Below, piece after piece: positions 16,963 through 52,975 of a stretch of DNA of 64,000 nucleotides; the stretch's first letter is position 1, and every line of letters begins with the position of its first letter. Made by a program: the position numbers and the translations under genes. Below the pieces are notes generated by a model that saw only the letters and a list, made by a program, of their open reading frames with translations, made no database searches and was not told the origin of the DNA. The stretch is from Halanaerobium saccharolyticum. GTDB taxonomy: Bacteria > Bacillota > Halanaerobiia > Halanaerobiales > Halanaerobiaceae. The stretch spans positions 1 through 64,000 of the forward strand of contig NZ_QAXS01000012.1 in NCBI RefSeq assembly GCF_003053565.1, read 5' to 3'.

Positions 16963-16977
16963 ATGGAGGACATTTTT

Positions 16978-19968: not shown

Positions 19969-20430
19969 ATGAGGATAAATAATAGTAATGGACTGACTTT
20001 AATCGAAACAGTAATAGCATTGTCCCTTGTTGTAGTTCTGGCAACTGCTTTTGCTGGTGCTATGTTAACAGGATTGAAAAGCGAAAAAACTACAAATGAT
20101 TTAGATAGAGCAGTAAATTTTTCTGCTTCAATTTATGAATATTTTAATCTTAAATTTGAATTTATTTTATCAAGTATAGAATTAAATTCTAATAGTTATA
20201 ATAATAGTTTGGAAAATTTCAAAAATGAAATTGATAATGGTCAGTTTAATAATATTTATGATCTTTATACTGAAAATTTAGATTATGATTTAGATAATTC
20301 TAAAATATTAATTGAAAAAATTAATGAAGATTTAAAACTGTATAAAGTTGAACTTATTATTGCTTGGAGTAGCGGCAATGAAAATAATTCATATAAATTA
20401 GAAAGTATTTTTGGTGGTTCAGATGAATAA
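19969..20430 (+). CDS. Prepilin-type minor pilin (PilV/GspI-like)
   Basis: Minor pilin of 153 aa with leader MRINNSNG and LTLIETVIALSLVVVLATAF, a class III prepilin signal with Glu at mature position 5 but Leu instead of Phe at position 1. The soluble part is acidic and Asn-rich. First pil gene behind the insertion sequence, with AAGGGGG before ATG. Its place ahead of a second minor pilin and a PilX-like gene matches the PilV/PilW/PilX order of minor pilin operons that prime pilus assembly. Confidence 0.85.
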   Translation: MRINNSNGLTLIETVIALSLVVVLATAFAGAMLTGLKSEKTTNDLDRAVNFSASIYEYFNLKFEFILSSIELNSNSYNNSLENFKNEIDNGQFNNIYDLYTENLDYDLDNSKILIEKINEDLKLYKVELIIAWSSGNENNSYKLESIFGGSDE

Positions 20431-20923
20431 AAACGAACACTTAGTATATAACAATGGAATAACTTTAATTGAAATTTTAATGGCTGTGATTATTCTTGGA
20501 GCAGTTATGTCTATTGCAACCCCAATGATTATTCAAACTTTTAATATAGTTGAGGATAGTTCTGTTAGAATAACTAAAAATAGAATGGCAGATATTATGC
20601 TGGAAGATATTAGTAAATATTTTAGGTCTGCAGTTAGTTATGATAAAAATACAATAAATGGTTTAGATATTTATGAGTTTGAAGCTTTTTCTCCTCAAGA
20701 TGGAAACAGAAAAAATTATAAAATTATTGAAACCTCTGATTCTAAATTAGAATTTAGAGAGAATGGCAATTTAATAAGGAAAATTGATAATGTTGATGAT
20801 TTTAATATTAATGAAGATAATCCCCCTTTATATATTTTTAAATTAAGAGTTATTATACAATCTGAAGAAATAATAAAACAATTTAATTTGGATGCTAGGA
20901 ATATACCTGTTGAAAATGAATAA
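20423..20923 (+). CDS. Prepilin-type minor pilin (PilW/GspJ-like)
   Basis: Minor pilin of 166 aa. The prepilin signal is ITLIEILMAVIILGAVMSIA after YNNG, with Glu at mature position 5. ATG 20423 overlaps the preceding stop by 8 bases and has GGTGG upstream. An upstream in-frame TTG at 20411 is open but poorly placed. The PilW/GspJ label follows from gene order and from a soluble domain without recognisable motifs. Confidence 0.83.
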   Translation: MNKNEHLVYNNGITLIEILMAVIILGAVMSIATPMIIQTFNIVEDSSVRITKNRMADIMLEDISKYFRSAVSYDKNTINGLDIYEFEAFSPQDGNRKNYKIIETSDSKLEFRENGNLIRKIDNVDDFNINEDNPPLYIFKLRVIIQSEEIIKQFNLDARNIPVENE

Positions 20924-20952
20924 AATTAATGATCAAGAAAGGGGGATTTGCA

Positions 20953-22524: not shown

Positions 22525-22559
22525 TGTAATAGGTTATTTAAAAGAAAGGGGATGATTTG

Positions 22560-23651
22560 ATGGCAATAAGCCCATTATCGCTAATCAGAGGAATAAAATA
22601 CACAAGTATTGATTTTGGTCATAGCAGCATCAAATATTTAAACACCAGAGTTAAAAACAATAAATTTAAGCTACTTGCTTCTGGACGCAGAGAAATTCCT
22701 ACAGGTACAATTAATGACGGTAAAGTAGTTGATACTCATCTTTTAACTAAAATTATAGAAGATATTTTTAATGAAAAAAATATGGAACCAGGAGTTTTAA
22801 TGCTTACACCTGCTTCCGGACAGGAATTTGTTAGAAATATTAAAATGCCTAAAATGCCGAGAGAGGAATTAAAGGAAGCATTAATCTGGGAGGTTCAGGA
22901 CTTTCTGGATTTAGAAGCAGAAAAGATAGCTTTAGATTACATTATTTCTAATGAAAAAGAAGATCAATATGAGTTATTGGTAACAGGTATCTCTAAAGAT
23001 GTTTTAAATGGTTACTTAGAGATTTTTGAAACGAACATGTTAAAAGTTAAAGTTTTTAATCTAGAAGATATGGCTTTAATTTCTTTACTATCTAAGAAAA
23101 AGAAACTGGAAAATCCATCTTTAATCTTAGATGTTGGAGCCAGCAGTTCTAAGATTTTAATAGCAGCTAAAAACAAATTATTTTTAAGCAGGGAAGTTGA
23201 TACTTCCGGAAATAATTTCAGCAGCTTATTTTTAAATGAAGAAAACAATCAAGAAGAAGCTGAAATTGAAAAGAAAAAGTTTAAATTTTTTCCCGATCAG
23301 GCAGGAGAAGAAAATCTTAATTTAATGCTTTCTGATATTAATACTGCAGAAACTCTGCAAAAAAAGGTTAAAGATCTGGCAGATGAAATAATTTTTGAAG
23401 TAAATCGTTCTCTGGAATATTATAATGAAAGAAATTCAGAAAATACAGTAGATGATATTTATTTGACCGGTGGGGGATTACTTTTAAATGGATTAGTTGA
23501 TTACTTTAAAGAAGAAATAGATAATGAAATATTTGTTATTGATCCTCTAAAAGAGTTTCAAATAAAAGAAAAGACAAATCAAATTAACAATCATTATTTA
23601 GCAACTGCTGCTGGTACTATTATGAGTGAGGTGATGCATAATGAGAGTTAA
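22560..23651 (+). CDS. pilM: Type IV pilus alignment protein PilM
   Basis: Actin-like cytoplasmic ATPase of the T4P alignment complex, 363 aa. The FtsA/PilM fold signals are seen: IDFGHSSIKYL (phosphate 1), LILDVGASSSKILIAA (phosphate 2) and IYLTGGGLLLNGLVDYF (adenosine). EALIWEVQDFLDL is the PilM block next to the insertion that contacts the PilN N-terminus. ATG 22560 follows AAAGGGGA. It overlaps pilN by 11 bases. Confidence 0.92.
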   Translation: MAISPLSLIRGIKYTSIDFGHSSIKYLNTRVKNNKFKLLASGRREIPTGTINDGKVVDTHLLTKIIEDIFNEKNMEPGVLMLTPASGQEFVRNIKMPKMPREELKEALIWEVQDFLDLEAEKIALDYIISNEKEDQYELLVTGISKDVLNGYLEIFETNMLKVKVFNLEDMALISLLSKKKKLENPSLILDVGASSSKILIAAKNKLFLSREVDTSGNNFSSLFLNEENNQEEAEIEKKKFKFFPDQAGEENLNLMLSDINTAETLQKKVKDLADEIIFEVNRSLEYYNERNSENTVDDIYLTGGGLLLNGLVDYFKEEIDNEIFVIDPLKEFQIKEKTNQINNHYLATAAGTIMSEVMHNES

Positions 23652-24168
23652 CCTCCTGGAAAAAGATGAAGGTCTAAAAATTCAATGGATGGAAATTGTA
23701 GTGGTTTTAATTATTATTTTCACTTTTGCAGCACCTGCTTTTAATTATTATCTTAATTATGTTGAAGTAAAAAATTTAGAACAGCGGCAAAGTAATTGGG
23801 AAACCAGACTTCAGGCTTTAAGGCCAGAAGAACGGCGTTATTATCGACTGGAAGAAGAGATAGCTAATTTTAAACTTCCGGAACGGGTAGAACTTGAAAA
23901 GTATACAGTTTCTCCCTTTTTCTTAGAGTTTGCTGAAATAACTGGTGATGATATTAGTTTTAATAATTTGGATTACAGCAGTGGTCAGATAAATATAAAT
24001 GGCAGGGCAGAAGATCTTAGATCATTATTAGATTTTAGTTCTCGCATTTTCAATTCAGAAGTTTTTTCTATTATTTCTTTAGAGAGATTTCAGAATAATG
24101 AGCAGTTAGAATTTAATCTGGTAGTAGAATTGGACAATAGGGAGAGAGGGGCGATTTATAATGAGTAA
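23641..24168 (+). CDS. pilN: PilN-like inner-membrane alignment protein
   Basis: Bitopic protein of 175 aa. A short cytoplasmic N-terminus, MRVNLLEKDEG, fits the conserved PilN tail that binds PilM (INLLP-like in other species). One membrane helix (residues 19-38) and a coiled-coil then ferredoxin-like periplasmic part follow. It overlaps pilM and pilO. The role is assigned from architecture and position in M-N-O-P-Q. Confidence 0.88.
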   Translation: MRVNLLEKDEGLKIQWMEIVVVLIIIFTFAAPAFNYYLNYVEVKNLEQRQSNWETRLQALRPEERRYYRLEEEIANFKLPERVELEKYTVSPFFLEFAEITGDDISFNNLDYSSGQININGRAEDLRSLLDFSSRIFNSEVFSIISLERFQNNEQLEFNLVVELDNRERGAIYNE

Positions 24169-24709
24169 TTTATCCAAAAGAGAGAAAGTACTACTTTTTA
24201 TTTTATTTGTAACAGTAGTATTTGTTGCTTATTATTATCTACTTTATCAACCTATTCAGGCTGAACAGCAAAATTTAGAAAATCAGATAGCTAATACTCA
24301 GAGCGAATATACAACTGTTCTCTCACGAGTTAATCAAATTGAAGATTTAAAAAAGGAATTGGCAAATTTACAGAGGGAAAGACAAGAGCGTCTGGAAATA
24401 GTTATTAGAGAGGCAGAAGAAATATTAGCAGCTATTGATTTTTTCGCCAGAGAAAGTGATGTTGAGATTAGAAGTTATCAAAAAGGAAATGCCAATAATG
24501 GATATCCTTTTACTTTTAATATAGAGGGAGAATATTTTGAGTTGCTCTCTTTTCTAAGAATGCTTGACAATTGGGATTATCGTTTAGTTGTAGAAAATTT
24601 ATCTGCTAATAATATCCAGCAGGAAGATAATTTGATGTCTTTAACTCTTAATTTATTTTATCATCAATCAGATGAGTTAAGAGATTTTATAGAAAGATCA
24701 GCGGGGTGA
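24161..24709 (+). CDS. pilO: PilO-like inner-membrane alignment protein
   Basis: Bitopic protein of 182 aa: membrane helix (residues 9-27, LLFILFVTVVFVAYYYLLY), a long coiled coil (about 32-90), then a periplasmic alpha-beta domain (FNIEGEYFELLSFLRMLDNW). PilN and PilO form heterodimers that connect PilM to PilP. It starts inside the end of pilN (8-base overlap). Confidence 0.88.
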   Translation: MSNLSKREKVLLFILFVTVVFVAYYYLLYQPIQAEQQNLENQIANTQSEYTTVLSRVNQIEDLKKELANLQRERQERLEIVIREAEEILAAIDFFARESDVEIRSYQKGNANNGYPFTFNIEGEYFELLSFLRMLDNWDYRLVVENLSANNIQQEDNLMSLTLNLFYHQSDELRDFIERSAG

Positions 24710-24713
24710 TAAA

Positions 24714-25172
24714 ATGAAGTACTTGAAATTGTTATTTTTTATAGTATTAATTATTACACTGAATAGCACAGCCTTTGCTTTAAACCTTGATGTGGATAAT
24801 GATTTAAATAGTTTTGCTAAGGAAAATTTATTGAATGAAAATGAAACTCAAAATTTAACAAATCCATTTTTTTTAAATGATCAGTTAGAAGAAGTTCCAG
24901 AAGAGGAAGTTGAATTAGACACTTCACCAAAGATGGCTGTAAATACTATTGAAAATAGAGAAGAGGTTGAGGAAATAAATGCTGAGCCTGAAATCACAAT
25001 AAATGGCGTTATATCAGCATCTAATTCAAGAATGGCTTTACTTATTAGCTATCAGCAGGAAAAACATCTACTTGAGATTGGCGATAGTCTGGATGGTTAT
25101 GAATTCACTGCTTATCAAAATGGAGAGGCTACTTTCAAAAAAGACGGAAGAGAGATAAAAGTTTTATATTAA
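24714..25172 (+). CDS. pilP: PilP-like periplasmic lipoprotein-position protein
   Basis: Exported protein of 152 aa. A signal peptide (residues 1-22, ending TAFA) is followed by an acidic, probably disordered linker. A small C-terminal beta domain (ITINGVISASNSRMALLISY) fits the PilP/GspC homology region that docks on the secretin. There is no lipobox Cys, so unlike proteobacterial PilP it would not be lipidated. Assigned by position and shape. Confidence 0.75.
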   Translation: MKYLKLLFFIVLIITLNSTAFALNLDVDNDLNSFAKENLLNENETQNLTNPFFLNDQLEEVPEEEVELDTSPKMAVNTIENREEVEEINAEPEITINGVISASNSRMALLISYQQEKHLLEIGDSLDGYEFTAYQNGEATFKKDGREIKVLY

Positions 25173-25204
25173 ATTTTAGATGATATTGATTGGAGGCAAG
25201 GTTA

Positions 25205-27091
25205 ATGATAAAAACAAAAAAAGTTTTAATTTTATTTTTATTGATCATGATTTTTTTCTCAGCAGCAGCTGCTGCCGGACCACAGGACAAAATAGAGAAT
25301 TTAAATTTTAAAAACACAGATATTGTTGATGTTTTGAGAACAATTGCAGAAGTGGCAGATGTTAATTTAATTACTGACAGTGAGATTTCTGGAAATATAA
25401 CAGTTAGTTTAAAAGATATTACTTTTCAAAAAGCTTTAGATTTAATTACTCAAACTCGAGCTATCAGTTATAGGTGGGATGGGAATACTGTTGTGGTAGC
25501 CTCAGCTGATAGACTGGATAGTATTTATGCTAATATCGTAACAAAATTTGTAGAAGTTAATTCCAGTGATTTTGATAACATAGGTACTATGGTTAGAGAA
25601 CTTTTTCCGGAAACACAGATCACTTTAGATCCTACCCGCAGACAGTTTATTCTAAAGGGAGAAAAAGAAAATATAGAGGAAATTAAGGAAATGATAAACC
25701 GATTAGATGCTTCTAAAACTGTGGCAGAGATTGAGAGTAGTAAAAGAACACAGGAACTTGAAGAAAAAGAAATTGAAATTTATAGTGAAAGCTATCAGGT
25801 TTTAAATTCAGAATTGGAAGATCTGCAGTCAAAATTAAGAACCGTTAATTCAAACTTGACTTATAAGATTAACCCTTTGACAGAGACAATTACAATAAGT
25901 GGAGAAGAGTCTTTGGTTAAAGAAGCTATCTCAATGGCCAAGACCTATGATCAGAGTTTAGAGCCGGAAACAAGAAATATTAGAGTTGATTATGTAGATA
26001 GTGAACAGATAACTGAAATAGTTGGTAAGTTTTATCCAGAGGTTAGTCTTCATGTTAATGCCAAGCGCAAAGAAATTATTATTAATGGAGCTAAAAATAA
26101 GTTAGATAATGTAGTTGAATTGATAAGAGAAATTAACAAGCCTCAGTATCAGGTGGTAATTGAAACGCGGGTGGAAGAAATTTCTTCTGAATTTTCACGG
26201 GAATTGGGGATTGAACATACCGGGGTTTTTGATATCATCAGAGAATCAGAGGTAAGTTCCGGTGGTGAGAATTATAAAATAGAGGAGATAGATTTTACCT
26301 GGCCAGATATTTTCAAAGCCTTAGATACCTCTACTAATACCACTACACTTGCAAGTCCTAAATTAATGACTTTAAATGGAGAAGAGGCAAATTTATCTAT
26401 TTTAGAAGAAGAACCTTATGAGGTTGTTACTACAGATGAAAATGGTGATAAAACCAGCAGTTGGGAATATGCAGAAGCAGGAGTGGAATTAACATTTACT
26501 CCCTGGATAACTGAAAATGATGAAATTGAATTAAAAATAGCGCCAACAGTAAGCAGTTTTAATGAAGTAGTTGACTCTCAAAGTGGAGAGGGAGAAAGTG
26601 CTCCTCCTGCCAAGAAGAGTAGAAGTGTAGAGACAACACTTAGACTAAAAAATAATGAAACCTTTGCTGTAGGAGGATTAATCCAGACTGACAGCGAAGG
26701 AATGATTACCAAAATTCCTTTGCTCGGTGATTTACCTCTTTTTGGTGAGTTATTTAAATTTAGAGAACCGAGTGACTCAACCAATGAATTAATAATTTTT
26801 GTAACCCCTCATATCATTAAATATGGTGATGAAGTGACAACTAAAAATGTTATTAATCCTCGAAGTGAAAAATTGGCTTCTGATGTTCAGAACGAGATTA
26901 AGTTAGATAAAGAAAAACAAAGTGAAATGAAACAAGAATTGGAAAAATCCAAGGAAGAAATAATAAATGAATACTTAGAACAACGAAGTAAAACTAGAAA
27001 AGAAATTCTCGAGTCACTAAAAGACGATAACAAAGAAAAAGAATATCAGGAATTAACACCTGAGGAGCTGGAAGAAATCCTCAACAACTAA
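25205..27091 (+). CDS. pilQ: Type IV pilus secretin PilQ
   Basis: Outer-membrane secretin of 628 aa through which the pilus exits. A signal peptide (residues 1-24) is followed by an STN domain (IENLNFKNTDIVDVLRTIAE), repeated N domains with a coiled insertion, and a secretin domain ending ETFAVGGLIQTDSEGMITKI with PLLGDLPLFGELFK. A charged helical tail of about 95 residues ends LTPEELEEILNN, which recurs at the end of the second secretin. ATG 25205 has GGAGG upstream; TTG 25190 is open but holds that site. Proof that the cell has an outer membrane. Confidence 0.93.
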   Translation: MIKTKKVLILFLLIMIFFSAAAAAGPQDKIENLNFKNTDIVDVLRTIAEVADVNLITDSEISGNITVSLKDITFQKALDLITQTRAISYRWDGNTVVVASADRLDSIYANIVTKFVEVNSSDFDNIGTMVRELFPETQITLDPTRRQFILKGEKENIEEIKEMINRLDASKTVAEIESSKRTQELEEKEIEIYSESYQVLNSELEDLQSKLRTVNSNLTYKINPLTETITISGEESLVKEAISMAKTYDQSLEPETRNIRVDYVDSEQITEIVGKFYPEVSLHVNAKRKEIIINGAKNKLDNVVELIREINKPQYQVVIETRVEEISSEFSRELGIEHTGVFDIIRESEVSSGGENYKIEEIDFTWPDIFKALDTSTNTTTLASPKLMTLNGEEANLSILEEEPYEVVTTDENGDKTSSWEYAEAGVELTFTPWITENDEIELKIAPTVSSFNEVVDSQSGEGESAPPAKKSRSVETTLRLKNNETFAVGGLIQTDSEGMITKIPLLGDLPLFGELFKFREPSDSTNELIIFVTPHIIKYGDEVTTKNVINPRSEKLASDVQNEIKLDKEKQSEMKQELEKSKEEIINEYLEQRSKTRKEILESLKDDNKEKEYQELTPEELEEILNN

Positions 27092-42466: not shown

Positions 42467-42493
42467 GAAAATAAAATTAAAATATTTAAAGTG

Positions 42494-42526
42494 ACAGCTG
42501 TGGAGTAATTTCTGCAGCTGTTTTTA
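42494..42526 (+). terminator. Operon terminator after cimA
   Basis: ACAGCTG (42494-42500) pairs with CAGCTGT (42515-42521), followed by TTTTTAT. The rest of the gap to 42753 is very AT-rich. It holds an 8-base inverted pair TTATTCAC (42543) and GTGAATAA (42654), and a TATAAT at 42699 without a clear -35. Confidence 0.8.
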
Positions 42527-42753: not shown

Positions 42754-44418
42754 ATGCAGATATTTTGTGAATATTTATACAATAAATACAGCTTTTCTCC
42801 TCAAACTAAGCTTAAAATCAAGCAAAAAAGAGAAACTGAAGGAATTAAAGCTTTAATTGATTATCTCAGGGAGGAAAAACTGCTTACTGAAGATCAACTG
42901 CTGCAGGCAGTAGCAGCCTATTTTGAAATTGATTTATTTAGGCATTCCAAAATTAAAGCAGCAAAAAATTTAAAGCTGCAGCTCGATATCTCGCAGGTAG
43001 AAAAATACAGTTTGATTCTGCTGGCAGAAGCTGAGGATGAATATTTATTTGGGACTCTCTATCCTCCGGATTTATTTTTGGAAGAAAAACTGAAATTCAA
43101 ATTCAAAGATAAGATTAAATTTTATCTGATGTCTGAAGCTGAATTTAACGAAGCAAAGAATTTAATTTACAGCAACTATTTTCAGCTGGATCAGCAGGAA
43201 CTGCTGAGTGAACTCGGAGATTTTAAAAAAATTGACAGCAGAGACATAGACAGCTTAAAAAATATAGTAGAAGATGCACCGGTGGTTAAGCTTTTAAACA
43301 AAATCTTAACTGAGGCAATTTCTTTAAAGGCCAGTGATATTCACCTGGAAAAAAAGAAAAATTACTTTAAAGTCAGGTACAGAATTGATGGAATTTTAAA
43401 AAGTTATTATAATTTGCCGGCAGAAATAGCTGCAGCGGTAATTTCCCGGATTAAAATCATTTCGGCAATGGATATTACAGTCCGCCATCTACCTCAGGAT
43501 GGCAAAATGGAATTTGAATTTCAAAACTCAAATTATGATATTCGAACTTCGGTAATTCCCACTATTTACGGGGAAAAAGCTGTTTTAAGGCTTTTATTAA
43601 GAAACGACCGACTCTTAAAAGTTGAGGAATTAAATTTCAGCAGTTATAACTTAAATAGATTTGAAAAAATTTTCAATTATAATTCTGGTATAATTCTGCT
43701 CTCAGGTCCTACTGGAAGCGGAAAAACTACAACCTTATTTTCAATTTTAAACAGGCTGGCTGCAGATAAAAATAACATTATAACTGTTGAAAATCCGGTT
43801 GAATATAGGCTGGAACTATTAAATCAGATAGAGATAAATGAGGCACAGGGACTCAACTTTCCGGTTGTTTTAAGGTCTATTTTAAGACAGGACCCGGATA
43901 TTATAATGATCGGAGAAATTAGAGATAAAGAAACTGCAGAAATAGCAGTTAGAGCGGCAGTAACCGGCCATCTTGTTTTAAGCACCATTCATACTATTGA
44001 CAGTATATCTGCCGTCAGCAGACTACTTGATATGGGGATTGCCCCTTATTTAATCAGCAGTACTCTCAATGCAGTTGTAGCTCAGAGATTGCTGCGAAAG
44101 TTATGCCCTGAATGCCGGAAGAAAAGAAAACTGAAAGCAGAAGAGAAAAATCTGCTCAGTGAGCAAAAATCTAAATTTTTTTACCAGGCAGCAGGCTGCG
44201 AAAAATGTAATGATGGTTACCGGGGCAGAACAGCAGCGGTAGAGGTTTTACTAATCAACGCAAAACTGAGGCAGCTGATCAGCCAGCAGGCAGACTATGA
44301 GCTGCTAAAAAGCGAAGCAGAGGCTTCAGGGATGCTGAGTCTGGCAGATGCCGCTTTTGAAAAATTGAAAAAAGGAATTACAACCCGGGAAGAAATTCTG
44401 AGGGTTATTGAACTGTAG
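42754..44418 (+). CDS. GspE/PilB-type assembly ATPase of the second locus
   Basis: Secretion or pilus assembly ATPase of 554 aa. Asp box ASDIHLEKKKNYFKVRYRID, Walker A GPTGSGKTTT (near residue 320), Walker B IIMIGEIRD, His box LVLSTIHTID, and zinc tetracysteine (CPEC and CEKC) are all present, so it should be active. The N-terminus has only one weak MshEN-like half (LREEKLLTEDQLLQAVAAYF) and no KLG-type motif, so c-di-GMP binding seen in the first PilB is probably lost. No PilT partner is present in this locus. Confidence 0.92.
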   Translation: MQIFCEYLYNKYSFSPQTKLKIKQKRETEGIKALIDYLREEKLLTEDQLLQAVAAYFEIDLFRHSKIKAAKNLKLQLDISQVEKYSLILLAEAEDEYLFGTLYPPDLFLEEKLKFKFKDKIKFYLMSEAEFNEAKNLIYSNYFQLDQQELLSELGDFKKIDSRDIDSLKNIVEDAPVVKLLNKILTEAISLKASDIHLEKKKNYFKVRYRIDGILKSYYNLPAEIAAAVISRIKIISAMDITVRHLPQDGKMEFEFQNSNYDIRTSVIPTIYGEKAVLRLLLRNDRLLKVEELNFSSYNLNRFEKIFNYNSGIILLSGPTGSGKTTTLFSILNRLAADKNNIITVENPVEYRLELLNQIEINEAQGLNFPVVLRSILRQDPDIIMIGEIRDKETAEIAVRAAVTGHLVLSTIHTIDSISAVSRLLDMGIAPYLISSTLNAVVAQRLLRKLCPECRKKRKLKAEEKNLLSEQKSKFFYQAAGCEKCNDGYRGRTAAVEVLLINAKLRQLISQQADYELLKSEAEASGMLSLADAAFEKLKKGITTREEILRVIEL

Positions 44419-44439
44419 TCCTGATGGGGGGAGATTTCA

Positions 44440-45474
44440 ATTAATTTTAAGAAAAAATTTGACCTAAAGTTTTTTGCAGCTCAGCTGCGGGTTATGCTGG
44501 AGTCAGGTCTGAATTTAAACAGGGCCTTAATGATCATCTCCAGACAGACAAATAACAGGCAGCAGGTAGAAATTTATAATGAGCTGCTAAAAAATATTGA
44601 ATCCGGCCTGAGCCTGGCAGAGGCAATGGAAGAAGATGAGGTTTTTCCAGATCTTTTTACAGCAGTAGTTAAAGCAGGAGAGAAAAGCGGCAGTCTGGTT
44701 GAGGTTTTAAAAAGCCTGGAAAATTACTACAGCAGCAGAGAGAAATTAAAAAAAGATATAAAAAAGGCTGCTTTTTATCCCCTGACAGTGATCACAGCTG
44801 TATTTATAGCAGCAGCCTTTATTTTTAAATTTATTCTGCCCGTATTTATTGATTTGTTTGCTGAATTTAGTGGTGAGCTGCCTTTAATTACAGTTCTTTT
44901 TCTACAGCTGAGTCAGCTATTTAATAATTATTTTATTGTAATCTTAATTTTCCTAATATTATTAATAACAGCTTTTGTATATTTATTTAAAAGTCAGGAA
45001 AGAAGAGATTTAAAAAGCAGTTTTCTGCTTCAAACCCCACTTTTATCTATTATTTATCGGGATTTAATTTTAACTCAGATAGCTACTTACTTAGCTCTGC
45101 TTTTAAAAAGTGGTTTAAAATTAATTTCTGCTCTTGAACTTTTAAAAAATATAATCAGTGATTATCAGTATCAAAATTTCATTGAGCAGACAACTTTAAA
45201 TATTTCAAAGGGAGCCTCTTTAACAGATTGTTTTGGAGATAGTAAATATATTCCCGATGTATTCTATTATCTTTTAATGACTGGAGAAGAGACAGCCCAG
45301 ATGGAGAACATGTTAGAAAGAGCAGGTGATTATTATTACCAAAAATTAAGTGAAGAAATTGCCAGAATGCTGCAGTATTTAGAGCCTTTATTAATAACAT
45401 TAACTGCAATTTTTGTTGCTTTACTTGCTGCAGCAGTAATGATGCCGATGTTTCAGATCTATTTAATCATCTAA
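44440..45474 (+). CDS. GspF/PilC-type platform protein with probable ATT start
   Basis: Inner-membrane platform protein of 344 aa with two T2SSF domains. The first conserved helix FFAAQLRVMLESGLNLNRAL aligns with FAQRLSVLIAAGIPLVRSL of the full-length PilC. The first ATG (44494) falls in the middle of that helix, while the frame stays open back to a stop at 44422. GGGGGGAG (44426-44433) sits six bases before an ATT at 44440, giving INFKKKFDLKFFAAQL, the likely real N-terminus. The N-terminal cytoplasmic domain of PilC (about 60 residues) is absent. Confidence 0.8.
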   Translation: MNFKKKFDLKFFAAQLRVMLESGLNLNRALMIISRQTNNRQQVEIYNELLKNIESGLSLAEAMEEDEVFPDLFTAVVKAGEKSGSLVEVLKSLENYYSSREKLKKDIKKAAFYPLTVITAVFIAAAFIFKFILPVFIDLFAEFSGELPLITVLFLQLSQLFNNYFIVILIFLILLITAFVYLFKSQERRDLKSSFLLQTPLLSIIYRDLILTQIATYLALLLKSGLKLISALELLKNIISDYQYQNFIEQTTLNISKGASLTDCFGDSKYIPDVFYYLLMTGEETAQMENMLERAGDYYYQKLSEEIARMLQYLEPLLITLTAIFVALLAAAVMMPMFQIYLII

Positions 45475-45547
45475 TTAGACTGATGTTAATTGTGAGCCAG
45501 AAATAGTTTCAACCTAATGGAAACCAATGAAAGAAAGGAATTTATTA

Positions 45548-45973
45548 ATGAAAATTAATTTTAAAGAGATAAATCCGGCCAAAAAAGAAGAGGGTTTTAC
45601 TCTGATCGAGTTACTAATTGTGATTGTGGTGCTGGGAATTCTAATGACAATGGCGGTGCCGGCTTTAAGTGGAGTAAAAAACAAGGCAGACACAGCAGTT
45701 GCCAAAGCAGATCTGCATAATATTATGCACAGCCTCGAGATGTATTATCTGGACCATGGAGAATATCCAGAGGAGATTACAAAGACTGATCTGAGTGCAG
45801 TCAGCAGCGAATTAAGTGATTTAAGTATTAAAAATCAAGCTTCAGATTACAGCTATCAGAGTGATGCTGAAAAATATCTAATAATTTATGAGGCTGCTTC
45901 AGATGAATTCTATTATATTTCAACTGCAGAATCATCTTTAACTGGTCCTGATTCCACTGAACCGACATTTTAG
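45548..45973 (+). CDS. GspG-like major pseudopilin
   Basis: Prepilin of 141 aa with a 15-residue leader ending EEG and FTLIELLIVIVVLGILMTMA (Glu at position 5). The GspG-type continuation is AVPALSGVKNKADTAVAKAD, and LEMYYLDHGEYP matches the GspG pattern (LDNGxYP). I use ATG 45548 with AAAGG nine bases upstream; ATG 45527 is open but holds that site. Confidence 0.87.
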   Translation: MKINFKEINPAKKEEGFTLIELLIVIVVLGILMTMAVPALSGVKNKADTAVAKADLHNIMHSLEMYYLDHGEYPEEITKTDLSAVSSELSDLSIKNQASDYSYQSDAEKYLIIYEAASDEFYYISTAESSLTGPDSTEPTF

Positions 45974-45977
45974 TTAA

Positions 45978-46460
45978 ATGAAAGTTGAAGCGGGCTTTAC
46001 TTTAATTGAAGTTCTACTGGTAATTACAGTAATGGGGATTTTATTTACAGTCAGCTATCAGCCGCAGCTTAAAGATGAGTTTAAGATTGAGCAGGAAATA
46101 GAAAGCCTGGCAGCTGATCTCCGCTGGGCCAGAAATAAGGCCATTCTTGACAATCAGACCTATATCTTTAGGATTTATACGATCAAAGAAAGTGCTGATG
46201 CAACTAAAATCCCCTATTATCTCTATGTTAAAGAAGATGGCAGTAAGATTATTAAGAAAAAAGGATATTATTCTGCCGGTTTAATCCTTTATAAAACTTT
46301 AAGCTTTAAAGTTGTAGAAGGAGATTACTATGAGTGGATCAGGTTTAATAATACTGCTACCGCAAGAGGAGGAACAGTCGCCCTGGCTGAGGCAAAAAGC
46401 GGGGCCCAAAAATATTCAATTACAGTCAATCAATTAGGGAGGGTTAGAATTGAAAAATAA
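45978..46460 (+). CDS. GspH-like minor pseudopilin
   Basis: Prepilin of 160 aa with a 5-residue leader MKVEAG, then FTLIEVLLVITVMGILFTVS. IESLAADLRWARNKAILDN is the characteristic GspH/FimT helix block. The soluble part is beta-rich. It starts 4 bases after the GspG-like gene, the same order as in type II secretion operons. Confidence 0.87.
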   Translation: MKVEAGFTLIEVLLVITVMGILFTVSYQPQLKDEFKIEQEIESLAADLRWARNKAILDNQTYIFRIYTIKESADATKIPYYLYVKEDGSKIIKKKGYYSAGLILYKTLSFKVVEGDYYEWIRFNNTATARGGTVALAEAKSGAQKYSITVNQLGRVRIEK

Positions 46461-46860
46461 TGCCGGCTTTTCACTACTGGAAGTCATAATCACAATTTCA
46501 CTGGCAGGAGCTGTACTGGCAGTGATGAGCAGAACAATTAAAACAGGTCTGGAAGTCCATACTTTTCTGGCAGATAAAAATGCAGCGGTAAACTGGACAG
46601 AATCAGTTTTAGAGGCCTATAAAAATAGAGATCTGTTGACTGAAGGAGTTGAAGACAGCAGCAGTGAATTTATCAGGAATTTAGAAGTTTTAGAAAAAGA
46701 ATCTCTACCCAGAGATTATGAGATGACAAGAGTGGAGGTGATTCCATTTGAAAAAGACGGGGTAAAATATGACGGCTTATATAAATTAAAAGTTGAAGTT
46801 GATTTTAAATGCAGAAATAAGGAGCATCAAAATGAAGTTCTCAGCCTGCTTGAGAAATAA
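46450..46860 (+). CDS. GspI-like minor pseudopilin
   Basis: Prepilin of 136 aa starting at TTG with GGGAGG upstream. Leader MKNNAG then FSLLEVIITISLAGAVLAVM, followed by a helix with NWTESVLEAYKN in the place of the GspI MAxxLAExxL block. It overlaps the GspH-like gene by 11 bases. Assigned by order G-H-I-J. Confidence 0.82.
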   Translation: MKNNAGFSLLEVIITISLAGAVLAVMSRTIKTGLEVHTFLADKNAAVNWTESVLEAYKNRDLLTEGVEDSSSEFIRNLEVLEKESLPRDYEMTRVEVIPFEKDGVKYDGLYKLKVEVDFKCRNKEHQNEVLSLLEK

Positions 46861-47341
46861 AATTAAGGCCGCTGAAGGTTTTACTCTGCTTGAAATACTG
46901 CTGGTAATTACAATTTCTTCTCTGCTGGCAGCAGTTTTTATGCAGCTGATTACAGATCTTTATCAGAATAACAGTTTTTTTAATCTGCATAACTCATGGC
47001 AGCTGGACGGCTATTTAGTGCTTGATTTTATAGCTTTTCAGATAAAAAATGCCAGCAGAGTTGATCTGATCAGCAGTCAGGAAATTGATATCTTTACTTA
47101 TTATGGCGGAGAATATCAGTGGCTTAAATTTAATGTTTATCAGAGTGGGGGCAGCAGCTCACTGGGAAGAGCGATTGGGAGTAGTGATCCTGGCTTTAAA
47201 GATTTCGGCAGAAATCTGGCCCTGCTGGATCGGATTGAGTCTTTGAATTTTGAAATGGTTGCTTCAGGTTTAATAAAAATAACTCTCTATCTGGAAGAAG
47301 ATGGCGAGAAATTAACAATAAGCAGGTTAATTGATATTTAG
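46832..47341 (+). CDS. GspJ-like minor pseudopilin
   Basis: Prepilin of 169 aa with leader of 14 residues ending AAEG and FTLLEILLVITISSLLAAVF. LDGYLVLDFIAFQIKNAS fits the GspJ/PilW block (xxLxxDLxxAxR). ATG 46832 has AAGGAG (46818-46823) eight bases upstream and lies 29 bases inside the preceding gene. A TTG at 46793 is open in frame but would place the ribosome site inside the gene. Confidence 0.82.
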   Translation: MKFSACLRNKIKAAEGFTLLEILLVITISSLLAAVFMQLITDLYQNNSFFNLHNSWQLDGYLVLDFIAFQIKNASRVDLISSQEIDIFTYYGGEYQWLKFNVYQSGGSSSLGRAIGSSDPGFKDFGRNLALLDRIESLNFEMVASGLIKITLYLEEDGEKLTISRLIDI

Positions 47342-47369
47342 TTTTAAAATCTTAATAAAGCAGGTATAG

Positions 47370-47756
47370 ATGATGAATTTATCAGGTAATAGAGGTTTTG
47401 TTTTATTTATAAATTTAATATTAATTACTCTGATCGGACTGTTTATTCCACTTCTGATTCAGCAGCAGAAAATTAATTATAGAATTCTGCAGAATAGAAT
47501 TACTGCCTCCCAAAATATTGAAGCTGTTGAGGCAGGTCTGCAGTATCAGCTTTATTTTTTAAAAGAAGAAGAGCTGCTGCTTGCTGAAAATCTGGAATTA
47601 AACAGTCAGTTGAAAGTAGAGCTTTTAGGAGAGGAGGATGATAACTTTATTTACTTAACTGCCAGCCTGGCAGGCAGTATTCCCTATAATGCTGAACTGA
47701 AACTGGAAAAAGAAAGTCTAAAAATTATTGAGAAAAAAATATATAGGAGTGAGTGA
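47370..47756 (+). CDS. Short GspK/PilX-like protein
   Basis: Protein of 128 aa: NRGFVLFINLILITLIGLFI is a prepilin-like N-terminal helix without Glu at position 5, as in GspK and PilX, and SQNIEAVEAGLQYQLYFLKE matches the PilX AxxAExG block. GspK normally has about 300 residues with a large insert, so this is a minimal form or a PilX-like scaffold only. ATG 47370 or 47373. Confidence 0.65.
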   Translation: MMNLSGNRGFVLFINLILITLIGLFIPLLIQQQKINYRILQNRITASQNIEAVEAGLQYQLYFLKEEELLLAENLELNSQLKVELLGEEDDNFIYLTASLAGSIPYNAELKLEKESLKIIEKKIYRSE

Positions 47757-48502
47757 TGATGTTTAATAATTATTATTCTGTAACAATTCCGGCTGAAGAT
47801 GGTCTTAGAAATCTAGTTGCCAGAGCCAAAGACAATAAGATAAATTTTGTAGATGGAATTAAAGAGCTTTCTTCAATTGGTAAAATTAAAAAGTTCAATT
47901 TTAACTGTCAGTATGTTGTTCTATTACCAGCGGCCTCTTTATTTTATCATTCTGTTGCCCTGGAGGAAAAGAACCCTTACCGGATCAGTGAAGACAGTAT
48001 CTTGAGCAAATTTGCTGAAGTTAAAAGTAATTTTGAAGAGGAATATTATTATGATTACTTAGAAATTGTTTCTGAGCAGACGCAGGAGCGGGAGATTAAA
48101 TTCTTCGCAGCCGATAAAACGATGCTGGATCCCCTAACAGCAGATATGGATAAATACAAAAACAATTATCTGGTATCTGCTCTACCGGTGGCCGTATTTT
48201 CAGTAATCAATAAAATTGTCTCGGCAGCTGATTATCTTCTATATTATAAGATAAATGGAAGTTACACGCTGCTGACAGCTGTAGATAAAAAACTCGATCT
48301 GCTCCAGTCTTCAATTAAGGAGACAGAGCTGCAGCAGGAAATTAATAAGACCAGAAAATATTATTTAAATAATAAAAATCTGGAGCTGGAAATTCTGGAA
48401 GGTAAAAGTGACCTGCTCAATTTAAGTGATTTAATAGAGCTGGAAGCTGATGATTTTGTCTTTTTAACCTCTCTGCTCTGGAGTATCAGCAGATGCCAGT
48501 GA
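47756..48502 (+). CDS. GspL/PilM-position cytoplasmic protein, divergent
   Basis: Not recognised with certainty. It has 248 aa, no membrane helix or signal peptide. It sits where GspL or PilM is expected, between the GspK-like and PilN-like genes. There is no intact actin-fold phosphate motif like the LILDVGASSS of PilM in the first locus; short matches such as DYLLYYKINGSYTLLTAV may be the remains of a strand pair. The likely role is the cytoplasmic half of a split GspL, with the next gene giving the membrane half. AGGAG precedes ATG 47756. Confidence 0.55.
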   Translation: MMFNNYYSVTIPAEDGLRNLVARAKDNKINFVDGIKELSSIGKIKKFNFNCQYVVLLPAASLFYHSVALEEKNPYRISEDSILSKFAEVKSNFEEEYYYDYLEIVSEQTQEREIKFFAADKTMLDPLTADMDKYKNNYLVSALPVAVFSVINKIVSAADYLLYYKINGSYTLLTAVDKKLDLLQSSIKETELQQEINKTRKYYLNNKNLELEILEGKSDLLNLSDLIELEADDFVFLTSLLWSISRCQ

Positions 48503-48957
48503 TCTTTAAGGAAAAAAAGTATGATCGGCTTTTAATTATAATGAAGGAATTATTAATTATAGTTTTACTGCTGCTTCTTTCCCTGCTTATTATTAATTTT
48601 TTTCTGGATAAGCTTAATCAAGGCTATCAGGCAGAACTGAGTCAGCTGCAGCAGGAAGAATTGAAATATTTATCCTTAATTAAAAAGAACGAAGAAAATA
48701 ACTTAGCCGAGAATTCTGCAGCTGAAAAATATAATTTATTGATAACTCTAACCGGCTGCAGTAAAGAAATCAAACTAAATTCTCTTCACTTAAAAAACGA
48801 AAAACTTACTCTCACTGCAGAGAGTAAAGAGCAGGAGCTGATCTTAAAATTTGTTGATTCCTTAAAAGCTGATCACACTTTTTTTAATGTAAATTTGCTC
48901 AGATTGACCCAGCAGAATGGATATAATTTTCAGCTGGAAACTATTATCAGACAGTGA
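48493..48957 (+). CDS. PilN/GspL-C-like bitopic protein
   Basis: Protein of 154 aa: short basic cytoplasmic N-terminus, one membrane helix (residues 18-38, very Leu-rich), a coiled coil, then a periplasmic alpha-beta part. It has the shape of PilN or of the C-terminal half of GspL. It overlaps the preceding gene by 10 bases and is followed by a PilO/GspM-shaped gene. Confidence 0.7.
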   Translation: MPVIFKEKKYDRLLIIMKELLIIVLLLLLSLLIINFFLDKLNQGYQAELSQLQQEELKYLSLIKKNEENNLAENSAAEKYNLLITLTGCSKEIKLNSLHLKNEKLTLTAESKEQELILKFVDSLKADHTFFNVNLLRLTQQNGYNFQLETIIRQ

Positions 48958-48969
48958 TGGAGGTAAAGG

Positions 48970-49422
48970 ATGAACAGAAAAAAGCTTGTGATTATTTCGG
49001 CAGTTTTCCTGCTCGGCTTGCTCTTATTTATGCAGTTTGGGAAAAGTAGAGAGCAGCTTGCAGTAAGGAGAAATCTGGAGAGTAAAATTGAAGCCCAGCA
49101 GAAACAGATTCTTATATTAGAGAATAAATATACTTCAGCAGAGAGCTCAGAAAAGACTCCAGCTAGAGAACAAAAATATAATTTAAAAGACTCTACTGCT
49201 CAGATACTGGCAGAGCTCAAGCTTTATGACCTGGAACTTATTGATTTCAGCAGTGGAGAAAATGAACTTAATTTAAATCTGCAGGGAGAATTCAAATCAA
49301 TTCTCAGCTTTATCTATTATTTAGAGACTGAATTAAAGTTTCTGGAGATTGCTGAGTTCAAAATCGAGGATGACAGCAGAAAGCTGTTTTTCTTTGTAAA
49401 ATTAAAAAATGAGCTGATATAG
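48970..49422 (+). CDS. PilO/GspM-like bitopic protein
   Basis: Protein of 150 aa: membrane helix at residues 6-22 (VIISAVFLLGLLLFM), coiled coil (about 30-55), and a periplasmic domain with LNLQGEFKSILSFIYYLETE, comparable to FNIEGEYFELLSFLRMLDNW of the PilO in the first locus. That likeness supports common descent of the two loci. GGAGG lies just upstream. Confidence 0.75.
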   Translation: MNRKKLVIISAVFLLGLLLFMQFGKSREQLAVRRNLESKIEAQQKQILILENKYTSAESSEKTPAREQKYNLKDSTAQILAELKLYDLELIDFSSGENELNLNLQGEFKSILSFIYYLETELKFLEIAEFKIEDDSRKLFFFVKLKNELI

Positions 49423-50154
49423 ATGGAAAAATTATTGAAAAACAAAAAAATAATTCTACTTCTAACTGTTCTTTTACTATTAGTAGTATTTTCTGCCTAC
49501 ATTAAGACTTCCGAAGTTAAACTGACTGAGATTCATCAAAAGCCTGAAGAGGCTGAAGCTGAACTTCTTTTTAAAGGAGAAAAAGCTTCAGAAAAAAATG
49601 AAAAAGTAGTAAGAAAAGAAGAAACTGTGGAGGAAAGCAGAGAAGCCAAAGCTGCAGTTAGTAAAATAGCACTAATTAGTGAAATTAAAGATCCATTTAA
49701 AGGAGATTCAGATTCCAGCAGCGGGCAAAAAGAGGCGGCAGCAGAAGGGAAAGAGCAGAAAAAAAATATTTATCCCGCTGAGCTGATAGATTTAGAAAAA
49801 AATATTATTGCCCGCGATTTAATTAAAAAAACTGCTCGAGATAATAAGCTGCAGCAGAAGAATCCAAAAGACTCAGAATTAAAGCCTGATCAGAGCAGTG
49901 AAAATCAAGCTGCTGCTGAAAACAAATTGAATATAGATAGACTGCAGCTTCCCTTTAAACTGCTGGGAATTATCAGGCAGAATAATAATTCAGCGGTTCT
50001 TTTTCTCTATCAGGGGCAGACTGTTGTTAAAAGTGAAAATGATAAGATTGGTCAGTTTACGATTAAAGAGATTCAAAATAAGGAGATAATAATTAGTTAT
50101 CAGCAGGCAGAACGAGTTATTAAGCTCTGGGAGGATGGAAAAAATGAAAAATAA
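49423..50154 (+). CDS. PilP/GspC-like periplasmic linker protein
   Basis: Protein of 243 aa anchored by an N-terminal helix (residues 8-26). A long Lys/Glu/Ala-rich, probably disordered stretch (about 40-170) comes next. A small C-terminal beta domain, LPFKLLGIIRQNNNSAVLFL, fits the GspC/PilP homology region. Linker length and anchoring are more like GspC than proteobacterial PilP. It starts directly after the preceding stop and overlaps the secretin start. Confidence 0.7.
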   Translation: MEKLLKNKKIILLLTVLLLLVVFSAYIKTSEVKLTEIHQKPEEAEAELLFKGEKASEKNEKVVRKEETVEESREAKAAVSKIALISEIKDPFKGDSDSSSGQKEAAAEGKEQKKNIYPAELIDLEKNIIARDLIKKTARDNKLQQKNPKDSELKPDQSSENQAAAENKLNIDRLQLPFKLLGIIRQNNNSAVLFLYQGQTVVKSENDKIGQFTIKEIQNKEIIISYQQAERVIKLWEDGKNEK

Positions 50155-51472
50155 AGTACTAAAACTGCTTCAGATATCAATTATGTTAATTATACTTCTG
50201 CTGCTCTCTGCTTTTGTTAGAGCGGAAACTGCAGCTGAAACTGAATTAATTTCAATTAACTTAAGAGATGTAGAACTGGAAACAGCCTTAATCATGCTGG
50301 CAAATACAGCTGAAAAAAATTTAATCTGTGACAGCTCGGTTAAAGGTAAAATTACCGTCATTTTTAATGATATTCCTTTTGAAAATGCTCTGAACTTAAT
50401 TACTGACAGTTTTAATCTTGACTACAGCAGTCAGAACGAAATCATTTATGTCAGCACCAGTGAAAAAATGGCCGCAGATAAGAAAAAAGTTGTCAGTAAA
50501 AAATATAAATTTCAAAATTTAAGTTCTGAGCTGGCGGCTGAAATCCTAAAAAAGAACTTTGAAGAAATCAAAGTTATTGATTTAAATAGTGAGGGACTGC
50601 TTGTTAACTGTCAGGAAGAGGATTTAAATGAGCTGGAAAAGATAATCAGCCAGATAGATCAGCCGCAAAAACAAATTATGATCAAAGCTCGAATTGAAGA
50701 AATAAGCAGGACAAAGATTAAAGAGCTGGGCATCAATCCCAATCAGCTCTCTGAATTAAAGATCATTAAAGATGACGCAGGAAACATAGAAAAATTAAAG
50801 CCTGGCTGGCCAGAAACCCTTAAGGCACTCAATGAAAAAGGTCTGTCCAATATCCTGGCCAATCCCAGTTTAATGACCCTGGACAGAAAGAAAGCAAAAC
50901 TGGTGATTGGTGATCAGATTCCAGTCAAGCTGGAAAGAGTTGAATCTGATAAAACTGTTTCCACGATCAGTTATATTGAAGCCGGTATTGTACTCGAATT
51001 TCTGCCAAAGATCATCAATCAAAAGCAGGTGCTTTTAGAAATCAAGCCTTCTGTAAATAGTATCGGTCAGATTCTGGCTGATGGACTGCCGGCAGTAAAT
51101 TCGCGCAGTGCTGAAACTACAGTAATTTTAGAAAATGGAGAAACCCTGGCAATAGGTGGCTTAATTAAAAAAGATGAGTTAAAAACAATCAGAGAAGTTC
51201 CAATTCTTGCCGATCTGCCGCTGCTTGGAGCCTTATTTTCGGCCTCAGAAAATACAGATATAGAAACAGAACTAATAATTTTTATTACTCCCGAAATCAT
51301 AGAAACGGAAAACAAATTGAGCCCGGCAGAGAAGGATGAGGCAGTTTCCAGTCAAAATGTTAAAAAAATCAGCAGTCAAAAAGAGGAGATTAAAGGGGAA
51401 AAGGAGAATAAAACATATAGAGAGTTTAAAACACTGACTGCAGAAGAATTAGAAGAAATTTTAAATAAATAA
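50144..51472 (+). CDS. Secretin of the second locus (GspD/PilQ-like)
   Basis: Outer-membrane secretin of 442 aa. A signal peptide (residues 1-27) is followed by STN (LISINLRDVELETALIMLAN), one N domain, and a secretin domain with SNILANPSLMTLDRKKAKL and NGETLAIGGLIKKDELKTIR, then PILADLPLLGALF. It is much shorter than the first PilQ. A charged tail ends LTAEELEEILNK, nearly the same as the end of the first secretin. ATG 50144 has GGGAGG nine bases upstream; ATG 50135 is too close to it. Confidence 0.9.
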   Translation: MKNKVLKLLQISIMLIILLLLSAFVRAETAAETELISINLRDVELETALIMLANTAEKNLICDSSVKGKITVIFNDIPFENALNLITDSFNLDYSSQNEIIYVSTSEKMAADKKKVVSKKYKFQNLSSELAAEILKKNFEEIKVIDLNSEGLLVNCQEEDLNELEKIISQIDQPQKQIMIKARIEEISRTKIKELGINPNQLSELKIIKDDAGNIEKLKPGWPETLKALNEKGLSNILANPSLMTLDRKKAKLVIGDQIPVKLERVESDKTVSTISYIEAGIVLEFLPKIINQKQVLLEIKPSVNSIGQILADGLPAVNSRSAETTVILENGETLAIGGLIKKDELKTIREVPILADLPLLGALFSASENTDIETELIIFITPEIIETENKLSPAEKDEAVSSQNVKKISSQKEEIKGEKENKTYREFKTLTAEELEEILNK

Positions 51473-51501
51473 AAGGATATTTGTATTTTTTAGAGAATTT
51501 T

Positions 51502-51530
51502 AATTCAGGGGAAACCCTGAATTTTCTTTT
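51502..51530 (+). terminator. Terminator after the second secretin
   Basis: AATTCAGGG (51502-51510) pairs with CCCTGAATT (51515-51523) around a GAAA tetraloop and runs into TTCTTTT. Confidence 0.88.
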
Positions 51531-51583
51531 AAAAACTGCTTTTATTAAAATTTAAAGATAATTATGAAAGGCAGCTGATCAGA

Positions 51584-52975
51584 TTGCTGACTAAAATTGA
51601 TAAAAAGATAAATCTAAAAAATATAATTATCTATCTGATTTTCTCTGCCAATTTTTTGATATTATTTGCCTATTTACCCTTTTATCAGGAATTTCAGCTT
51701 TTTAAGGGGGCGGATAATAACTATCAGCTGCTGCGCTTTGATAATATTTATTTTCCCCGTTTAAAAATTCTAACTTACAGTGCTTTTATTTTGCTGATCC
51801 TATTTCTGATCTATATAATTAAAAATCAGGATAATATTAAAAATAATGTCTTTAATTATCTTATTTTTTCACTTTTTATTCTGTTTTCATTTTCAACCTA
51901 TTTTGCTGTTGATCCATTTACAGCTTTGAATGGGAGAATTTATCGCTGGGAGGGATTTATTGCCCTGGCAGCCTATCTTTTTTTCAGTTTTTTAACTGCA
52001 AATCTGGTAAGAAAATTAAATTACTTTAAGATCTATGCCTATTTAATCTGGGGTTCTGCGGCAGTTTTATCAGTTTATGGTCTGCTGCAGTATTTTGGTT
52101 TTGACTTTATTAAAAGAGATCCTTTAAGAGAAAATTGGTACCGAGCCTTTGCTACTTTTGGCAATCCTAATTTTGCAGCCAGTTTTTCTGTTCTAGTTCT
52201 GCCCACCTTTATTTTGCTCTACCTGGTTTTAAAAAAGAGTAGTTATAAAAGTGCAGCTTTTGCCGGCAGCTCCCTGGTATATGCCTTTTTATTGAGTACA
52301 GCAACCAGAGGTGCCTGGCTTGGTTTTTTTCTAACAGTAACAGCGGCAGTTATATTACTTTTTGATTATCTTAAGCAGAAGAAAAAAGAAATTCTTAAAC
52401 TGCTTCTTATTTTCATTTTGATAACTATCTTTTTGAATTCTTTTCACGGCGGCTTAACCGGGCTCAGGTTTATCAGCATTTTCCATGATCTGCAGGATCT
52501 TTCTTCAGCTGAAGAGGAAGAAATAGATAGGGTGGGGTCAAATAGAATCTTCATCTATAAAAATTCTCTACCGCTGCTGCTTGAAAATCCAATCCTGGGA
52601 GCTGGACCTGATAATTTTGCTGAAGTATTTCCCCAGCAGAAATACAGAGAATTTGCCGGCAGTAAAAATCAGATAGTTGATAAAGCACATTCAGAATATC
52701 TTCAGCTTGGGGTAACGGCAGGAATACCTGCTTTAATAATTTATTTAGCCCTAATTGCATATATTTTATACCAGCTGCGGCCAAAAGCGGTGCAAAAAAT
52801 TGAGCTCGAGCAGAAAGAAGGACTCAAGGAATTTATTAAATTAACTCTGTTTTTTTCTATACTTGCCTATGCACTTCAGGCAGTATTAAATATAAGTGTT
52901 GTTACAGTAGCTCCCGTATTCTGGACCATTCTTGGTTTTGCTGGAGCATATATTATAAATTTTAAAGATGATTAG
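51584..52975 (+). CDS. O-antigen ligase/Wzy-like membrane protein of the second locus
   Basis: Polytopic protein of 463 aa with about eleven hydrophobic segments. The ligase-family motif KAHSEYLQLGVTAGIPALII parallels KPHNLYLQIAVNTGII of the first copy, and GNPNFAASFSVLVLP and STATRGAWLGF match family loops. It lacks the large insertion of the copy at 15205. The start is TTG 51584 with a distant AAAGG, so the exact N-terminus is uncertain. Pairing with a pilin locus again suggests glycan transfer onto pseudopilin, or O-antigen or polysaccharide work; not settled. Confidence 0.75.
   Translation: MLTKIDKKINLKNIIIYLIFSANFLILFAYLPFYQEFQLFKGADNNYQLLRFDNIYFPRLKILTYSAFILLILFLIYIIKNQDNIKNNVFNYLIFSLFILFSFSTYFAVDPFTALNGRIYRWEGFIALAAYLFFSFLTANLVRKLNYFKIYAYLIWGSAAVLSVYGLLQYFGFDFIKRDPLRENWYRAFATFGNPNFAASFSVLVLPTFILLYLVLKKSSYKSAAFAGSSLVYAFLLSTATRGAWLGFFLTVTAAVILLFDYLKQKKKEILKLLLIFILITIFLNSFHGGLTGLRFISIFHDLQDLSSAEEEEIDRVGSNRIFIYKNSLPLLLENPILGAGPDNFAEVFPQQKYREFAGSKNQIVDKAHSEYLQLGVTAGIPALIIYLALIAYILYQLRPKAVQKIELEQKEGLKEFIKLTLFFSILAYALQAVLNISVVTVAPVFWTILGFAGAYIINFKDD

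Follow-up and report, generated by a model that had tools for sequence, protein, structure and literature searches.

The first 64,000 nucleotides of contig NZ_QAXS01000012.1 of Halanaerobium saccharolyticum (NCBI RefSeq assembly GCF_003053565.1), hereafter the window, carry two loci of the type IV pilus (T4P) kind, and the second of these, locus 2, is the subject of the present analysis. Locus 2 is a 12-gene operon on the + strand at 42754-51472, whose tightly packed genes, spaced by -32 to 52 bases, run E, F, G, H, I, J, K, PilM/GspL-like, PilN, PilO, PilP/GspC-like and secretin. An earlier, sequence-only reading had described here a second pilus locus resembling a type II secretion system (T2SS), and its gene order, strand and coordinates hold by gene calls and domain matches. 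The range it gave, 42754-52975, starts correctly but ends too late, since the operon stops at 51472 and the last gene included (51584-52975) is a Wzy_C/O-antigen-ligase-like one. This gene was rejected as a part of the machine because it sits after a terminator-like hairpin and is found only in some relatives, being missing from several orthologous loci. The features are as follows.

42493-42522, +: terminator-like hairpin upstream of locus 2, after a cimA-like gene
42754-44418, +: 2E, assembly ATPase of the GspE/PilB type, 554 amino acids (aa); PF00437, 3.6e-123
44440-45474, +: 2F, platform protein (GspF/PilC); PF00482, 2.6e-44; about 60 N-terminal residues missing
45527-45973, +: 2G, major pilin or pseudopilin (GFTLIE); T2SSG match confined to the N-terminal helix
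45978-46460, +: 2H, minor pilin of the GspH/FimU/ComGD type
46450-46860, +: 2I, minor pilin of the GspI type, ranking among the operon's best conserved proteins
46829-47341, +: 2J, minor pilin of the GspJ/ComGF type; a longer reading frame is possible from 46793
47370-47756, +: 2K, minor pilin of the GspK/PilX/ComGG type, 128 aa, no Glu5
47753-48502, +: 2L, shortened actin-like protein of the PilM/GspL-cytoplasmic type, 249 aa
48493-48957, +: 2M1, PilN-like bitopic protein, 154 aa; profile comparison with PilN 99%
48970-49422, +: 2M2, PilO/GspM-like bitopic protein; profile comparison with PilO 97%
49423-50154, +: 2C, membrane-anchored PilP/GspC-like linker with a C-terminal HR/PilP-type beta domain
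50135-51472, +: 2D, secretin, 445 aa, with N0, one N domain and the secretin domain; PF00263, 4e-45
51502-51523, +: terminator-like hairpin closing locus 2
10507-27091, +: locus 1, for comparison, with PilB, PilT, PilC, pilins, a Wzy_C protein, minor pilins and PilM-N-O-P-Q
17445-18188: within locus 1, the sole prepilin peptidase of the genome

Components of the second pilus operon

The genome (3.2 Mb, 98.7% complete) encodes three PF00437 ATPases, namely PilB, PilT and 2E, two secretins, and eight N_methyl pilins, every one of which lies within locus 1 or locus 2. Neither PilT nor a prepilin peptidase is encoded in locus 2, as the sequence-only reading had noted, and the single copies of PilT and of the type IV prepilin peptidase in the whole genome are those of locus 1. 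LpxC is also encoded, and therefore the cell should have an outer membrane with lipopolysaccharide (LPS), to which the two secretins point as well.

In 2E the Walker A and B motifs, the His box and the four-Cys zinc motif are intact, and the MshEN motif for cyclic di-GMP is degenerate. The probable start of 2F is an ATT codon at 44440 behind GGGGGAG, the first in-frame ATG being at 44494; an in-frame ATT near the same site is also present in the orthologous loci L142 and L143. The operon encodes four prepilin-type proteins with a class III signal and one K-type protein without Glu5, a condition typical of K/ComGG subunits in type IV filaments (PMC10790768). The block in 2G that had been taken for GspG is a genuine pilin signal but does not make the protein a full GspG, as Pfam T2SSG is matched only over the first helix (positions 4-38 of the 108-position profile, 9e-6).

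The gene called GspL-like in the sequence-only reading is indeed kin to PilM and GspL; it is, however, a separate, shortened PilM-like protein rather than the fused GspL. The DxG and GGG nucleotide-binding motifs are no longer present in 2L in the genus of the window. The protein is derived from PilM, because full-length PilM fills its place in two relatives (loci L152 and L202, in genomes G129 and G109) and because its hhalign match to PilM reaches 99% once these intermediates are included, as against 2% from the shortened forms alone; its match to GspL of the T2SS of the class is 93%. The AlphaFold2 (AF2) model of 2L shows the fold common to PilM, FtsA and GspL, and its two nearest relatives score about equally, PilM at Z 10.8 and cytoplasmic EpsL at Z 10.2. 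The resemblance of the PilO-like proteins of the two loci, also claimed earlier, is weak by BLASTP (E 0.005) and clear by profile comparison. The linker 2C matches PilP (98%) and the HR domain of GspC from the T2SS of the class (96%) alike, with GspC_delta at 1.4e-4. Negative controls stayed low in these profile comparisons, reaching at most 52% (2C against PilO), and single Escherichia coli Gsp and Hof sequences, too divergent to serve as profile partners, gave no signal for the L, M and C subunits.

Descent and distribution of the operon

Trees of the ATPase and platform proteins were made in a quick version of 80 rows and a careful version of 50 rows, the latter omitting the ComG-like rows, which in the quick tree had very long branches and could be placed only poorly. 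The E and F proteins of locus 2 form one clade (support 97/90) among the T4P motors of Halanaerobiales and outside T2SS. In the quick tree, locus 2 and the PilB/PilC of Halanaerobiales make up a 22-row clade with support 99, and in the careful tree these motors are split from T2SS at 99/99. Constraining locus 2 to group with T2SS lowered the log-likelihood by 67 and was rejected by the approximately unbiased (AU) test (p 0.000225). The secretin 2D falls outside the GspD clade (100/99), on the PilQ side; against the MshL profile it scores 102 bits, far under the 250-bit cut-off, and the trees contained no MSH reference rows. The comparison of both ATPase and secretin that the sequence-only reading had proposed as a check has thus come out with the T4P of Halanaerobiales, and not nested in proteobacterial T2SS; the trees and the AU test, under the models used, reject horizontal transfer of the latter.

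It is very probable, given these trees, that locus 2 is a duplicate of a T4P operon of Halanaerobiales origin. Locus 2 is present and syntenic in 14 of the 59 genomes of the class. In the genomes of the same genus, except the incomplete G128, all twelve genes are found in the same order between a cimA-like gene and aroK/aroB-aroQ-pepP, and two others of the same family (G081 and G129) have locus 2 with the flanking aro genes retained. In G109, from a neighbouring family, there is a related locus with full-length PilM, a 268-aa gene replacing O and P, and a 608-aa secretin adjoining pepP. Identity of the orthologous loci to the window ranges from more than 90% down to about 40%; the Walker, His-box and zinc motifs and the pilin Glu5 are kept in nearly all orthologues, and K lacks Glu5 throughout. 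The operon is invariant across all the Halanaerobium-like genomes examined that have a complete locus, with the ATPase motifs intact.

In relatives with a single locus, an ordinary T4P operon adjoins aroK-aroB-aroQ-pepP at its PilQ end, a linkage that E. coli keeps as well (hofMNOPQ-aroK-aroB). In the window, locus 1 has aroE before it and locus 2 has aroK behind it. An in situ, tandem duplication of the T4P operon is likely because in G129 locus 1 runs straight into locus 2, followed by aroC, Wzy_C, aroK, aroB and aroQ. The simplest history would be a duplication in place, inside the shikimate gene cluster of the ancestor of Halanaerobiaceae and a close family.

Some further observations concern locus 1 and its relatives. 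Within the genus, locus 1 (10507-27091; L207, L208, L221-L229) occurs as two allelic types, and its minor pilins are replaced as cassettes even at 93% motor identity; its PilB and PilC in the window group with family f72, and its PilQ with a congener. These patterns point to mosaic exchange of locus-1 pilus genes. Each pilus locus is adjoined by one O-antigen-ligase-like (Wzy_C) protein (15205-16962 and 51584-52975), and the former, lying between two pilin genes, may be a pilin glycan transferase. In G129 a solitary PilB-type ATPase (C29:41938-43572, L154), 51% identical to locus-1 PilB, lies far from recognised pilus genes.

Pilin divergence and the nature of the filament

Surface type IV pilins diversify fast, whereas T2SS pseudopilins do not. 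In six genomes with both loci, the ratio of the distance in the globular part of the pilin to that of the motor is 0.8-1.5 for locus 2 and 2.5-4.3 for locus 1. The major pilin was assumed to be the one encoded first after the platform gene, and the mean identity of its globular part was binned by motor identity (45-55, 55-65, 65-75 and 75-85%, the pairs being non-independent), as follows.

Locus 2: 46, 52, 71, 72%
T2SS references: 47, 59, 75, 84%
T2SS of other Halanaerobiia: 52, 56, 60% (first three bins)
Halanaerobiia T4P: 31, 32, 31, 20%
Locus 1: 28, 44, 37% (no 55-65 bin)
Other, mostly Bacillota, T4P: 27, 34% (first two bins)

The major pilin of locus 2 evolves like T2SS pseudopilins, sitting with T2SS and apart from T4P. 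The ratio of pilin to motor divergence is a cheap sequence test of endopilus against surface pilus, usable on other unclassified loci. The ComG-like operons L233-L237 were considered as a competence (Com) control and proved unusable, being without a ComGC-type first pilin. Two PilT-less, aroQ-linked pilus loci in other genomes (L173 in G107 and L196 in G108), which encode a prepilin peptidase of their own and a short secretin like 2D, also have a first pilin of T2SS-like conservation (62% at about 61% motor identity) and may be orthologous to locus 2 (support 73/54 in the careful E and F tree).

The reading we favour, with a probability of about 0.5, is that a paralogous type IVa pilus (T4aP) machine was turned into a short, periplasmic, T2SS-like endopilus. 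It is the best reading because PilT has been lost, the pilins are slow and the scaffold is GspL-like. After the duplication, PilT, the retraction motor, and a prepilin peptidase of its own would have disappeared from locus 2, which would have become specialised as a pseudopilus. PilD of locus 1 would cleave 2G-2K, and 2H-2I-2J-2K would form the tip complex. The degenerate PilM-like protein 2L would be a scaffold that, together with 2M1 and 2M2, keeps the 2E hexamer on 2F; 2E would spool 2G into a short piston, which 2C would couple to the 2D secretin, so that folded exoproteins are pushed through 2D. Taking the parts separately, locus 2 probably builds an endopilus, a filament confined to the periplasm, and the odds that its function is the secretion of protein cargo fall slightly below even. 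The sequence-only reading had suggested that a T4P duplicate may have evolved to resemble a T2SS without any part played by proteobacteria. The origin it proposed is borne out by the trees, the AU test and the tandem loci in a relative, and the T2SS-like form is plausible and has indirect support, in that PilT is lost, the pilins are conserved in the manner of pseudopilins and PilM is degenerate in a GspL-like manner. We tentatively suggest a second, independent origin of a T2SS-like endopilus from T4aP in diderm Bacillota, and with the same reserve that its intermediates are visible in relatives, first with full-length PilM and with two loci in tandem, then with the loss of PilT and PilM degenerating into a GspL-like scaffold.

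Several points weigh against this interpretation. The analysis found neither a substrate nor a secretion signal, and no linked gene for an exoprotein. The minor pilins of pili and T2SS are functionally interchangeable (PMC10191384), and therefore composition alone cannot decide. 2K is too short for the GspK alpha-domain, 2G is without the C-terminal region of GspG, and the AF2 model of 2L is of low confidence (predicted local distance difference test, pLDDT, 65). The pilin-to-motor metric was calibrated on T2SS and T4P sets, without Com pili, which might behave alike.

The last point bears on the main rival, which accounts for most of the same facts: a DNA-uptake endopilus, the diderm counterpart of ComG, passing DNA through 2D to ComEA and ComEC. 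The E-F-G-H-I-J-K order, the lack of PilT and the short platform match the comG operon (PMC10790768), 2G and 2H have NCBIfam matches to ComGC and ComGD, and comEC with an adjacent comEA-like gene is found on contig 5 (G000:C5:64105-65738), from which the organism may be naturally transformable. However, as far as the long-branched ComG rows show, E and F derive from the T4aP of Halanaerobiales and not from ComM; comEC is found in bacteria irrespective of such loci; and diderm T4aP usually serve DNA uptake with PilT, a role that locus 1 could fill. We regard this alternative as less likely than the T2SS-like endopilus, while giving it more weight than any other rival.

Somewhat less likely still is a further T4aP of the ordinary kind, serving adhesion or surface attachment, that either relies on the PilT and PilD of locus 1 or is non-retracting. 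It would suit the split PilM/PilN/PilO/PilP/PilQ composition and the T4aP phylogeny, as well as the AF2 model of 2G (pLDDT 78), whose closest structure is the T4P pilin PilA4 of Thermus thermophilus (Z 9.7, against 6.8 for EpsG). It agrees poorly with pilins that evolve about as slowly as the motor, unlike those of the T4P sets examined, with the loss of the PilM nucleotide-binding motifs, and with the fact that no tip adhesin gene was recognised. A decaying, non-functional T4P duplicate, to which the shortened PilM, platform and K proteins might point, is highly improbable, since the complete orthologous loci examined, down to about 50% identity, all have the 12 frames intact and keep the ATPase motifs and Glu5. 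A proteobacterial-type T2SS gained by horizontal transfer is the least credible of all, for although the GspE, GspF and GspG profiles score slightly higher than those of PilB, PilC and ComGC on 2E, 2F and 2G, the AU test, the secretin outside the GspD clade, the split of PilM from PilN, and a genuine T2SS of the class that is a different locus, with motors grouping with T2SS, all stand against it.

If the T2SS-like endopilus is the correct reading, locus 2 would be a lineage-restricted paralogue in which PilT was lost once again, while the parental pilus remains adjacent and relatives have intermediates, and the step from pilus to secretion machine would become dissectable by genetics. The T2SS is regarded as one lineage that descends from T4aP and arose when PilT was lost (PMC6668835, PMC10191384). 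The endopilus would also fill a gap in the secretion systems of Halanaerobium-like bacteria, for which one survey lists only the type I and type Vb systems (PMC4793230). None of the papers searched brought type IV pili and type II secretion together with Halanaerobium. Antunes et al. 2016 described one conserved T4P locus in Halanaerobiales (PMC5007114), and Denise et al. counted three T4aP, two Tad and one T2SS with secretins in Firmicutes that have an outer membrane (PMC6668835); locus 2 may be among these T4aP. The same authors reported T2SS in Clostridia of a diderm clade (PMC6668835), which fits the distinct T2SS of Halanaerobiia seen in this analysis.

Comparison with known systems

Among the closest systems is the T4aP of Halanaerobiales and other diderm Bacillota (locus 1; PMC5007114), with which locus 2 shares the ATPase, the platform, H-I-J-K, PilM, PilN, PilO and PilP as separate subunits, a PilQ-side secretin, the aro neighbourhood and the grouping in the trees. 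It differs from this T4aP in having no PilT and no PilD, a short platform, a degenerate PilM, a short secretin and a slow major pilin. The ComG pilus (ComGA-GG of Streptococcus sanguinis and Bacillus subtilis) agrees with locus 2 in how the first seven genes are ordered, in the absence of PilT and in a short platform, whereas locus 2 adds PilMNOP-type subunits and a secretin and is T4aP-derived. The mannose-sensitive haemagglutinin (MSHA) pilus is likewise a T4aP derivative without PilT that borrows its prepilin peptidase (PMC6668835, PMC10191384), but it is a surface pilus with components of its own, such as MshN (PMC10191384), and the likeness drawn here is one of description.

Separate and complete T2SS loci occur in other Halanaerobiia (L156-L161, L164, L167, L168, L179 and L181). 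They encode an HHH-containing K-like protein, a CdsD_C protein, GspE of about 500 aa, F, a full GspG, a fused GspL of about 430 aa, GspM and a secretin of about 600 aa; the motor falls inside the T2SS clade, but the secretin is long-branched and no member of the GspD clade, so that this system is possibly a hybrid. The genuine T2SS is present in 12 other genomes of the class and not in this one, and none of the 59 has both it and locus 2 (Fisher p ~0.05, uncorrected for relatedness and descriptive only); this complementary distribution was dropped as evidence, as the value ignores kinship.

With the T2SS (Pul/Out/Eps, and the Halanaerobiia locus, e.g. L157), locus 2 shares the absence of a retraction ATPase, the E-F-G-H-I-J-K order, conserved pilins, a GspL-like loss of nucleotide motifs and an HR/PilP-type linker that may correspond to GspC. 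The order had been read earlier as T2SS operon logic, an argument we have dropped, ComG operons (PMC10790768) and the minor-pilin sets of T4aP being equivalent. Locus 2 is phylogenetically T4aP, its secretin is on the PilQ side with fewer N domains, and 2K is short. GspL of the T2SS is a fused PilM-PilN (433 aa in L157), as against the separate 2L and 2M1, and the GspG of L157 matches T2SSG over positions 1-108 at 5e-37, while 2G lacks its C-terminal domain. Judged by membership, locus 2 is not a T2SS by its sequences, departing from one in four features, namely the clade of E and F, the GspD clade, the fused GspL and the full-length GspG; it agrees with one in lacking a retraction ATPase and in its H-I-J-K set with a Glu5-less K, a set that does not discriminate, being common to T4aP and Com pili.

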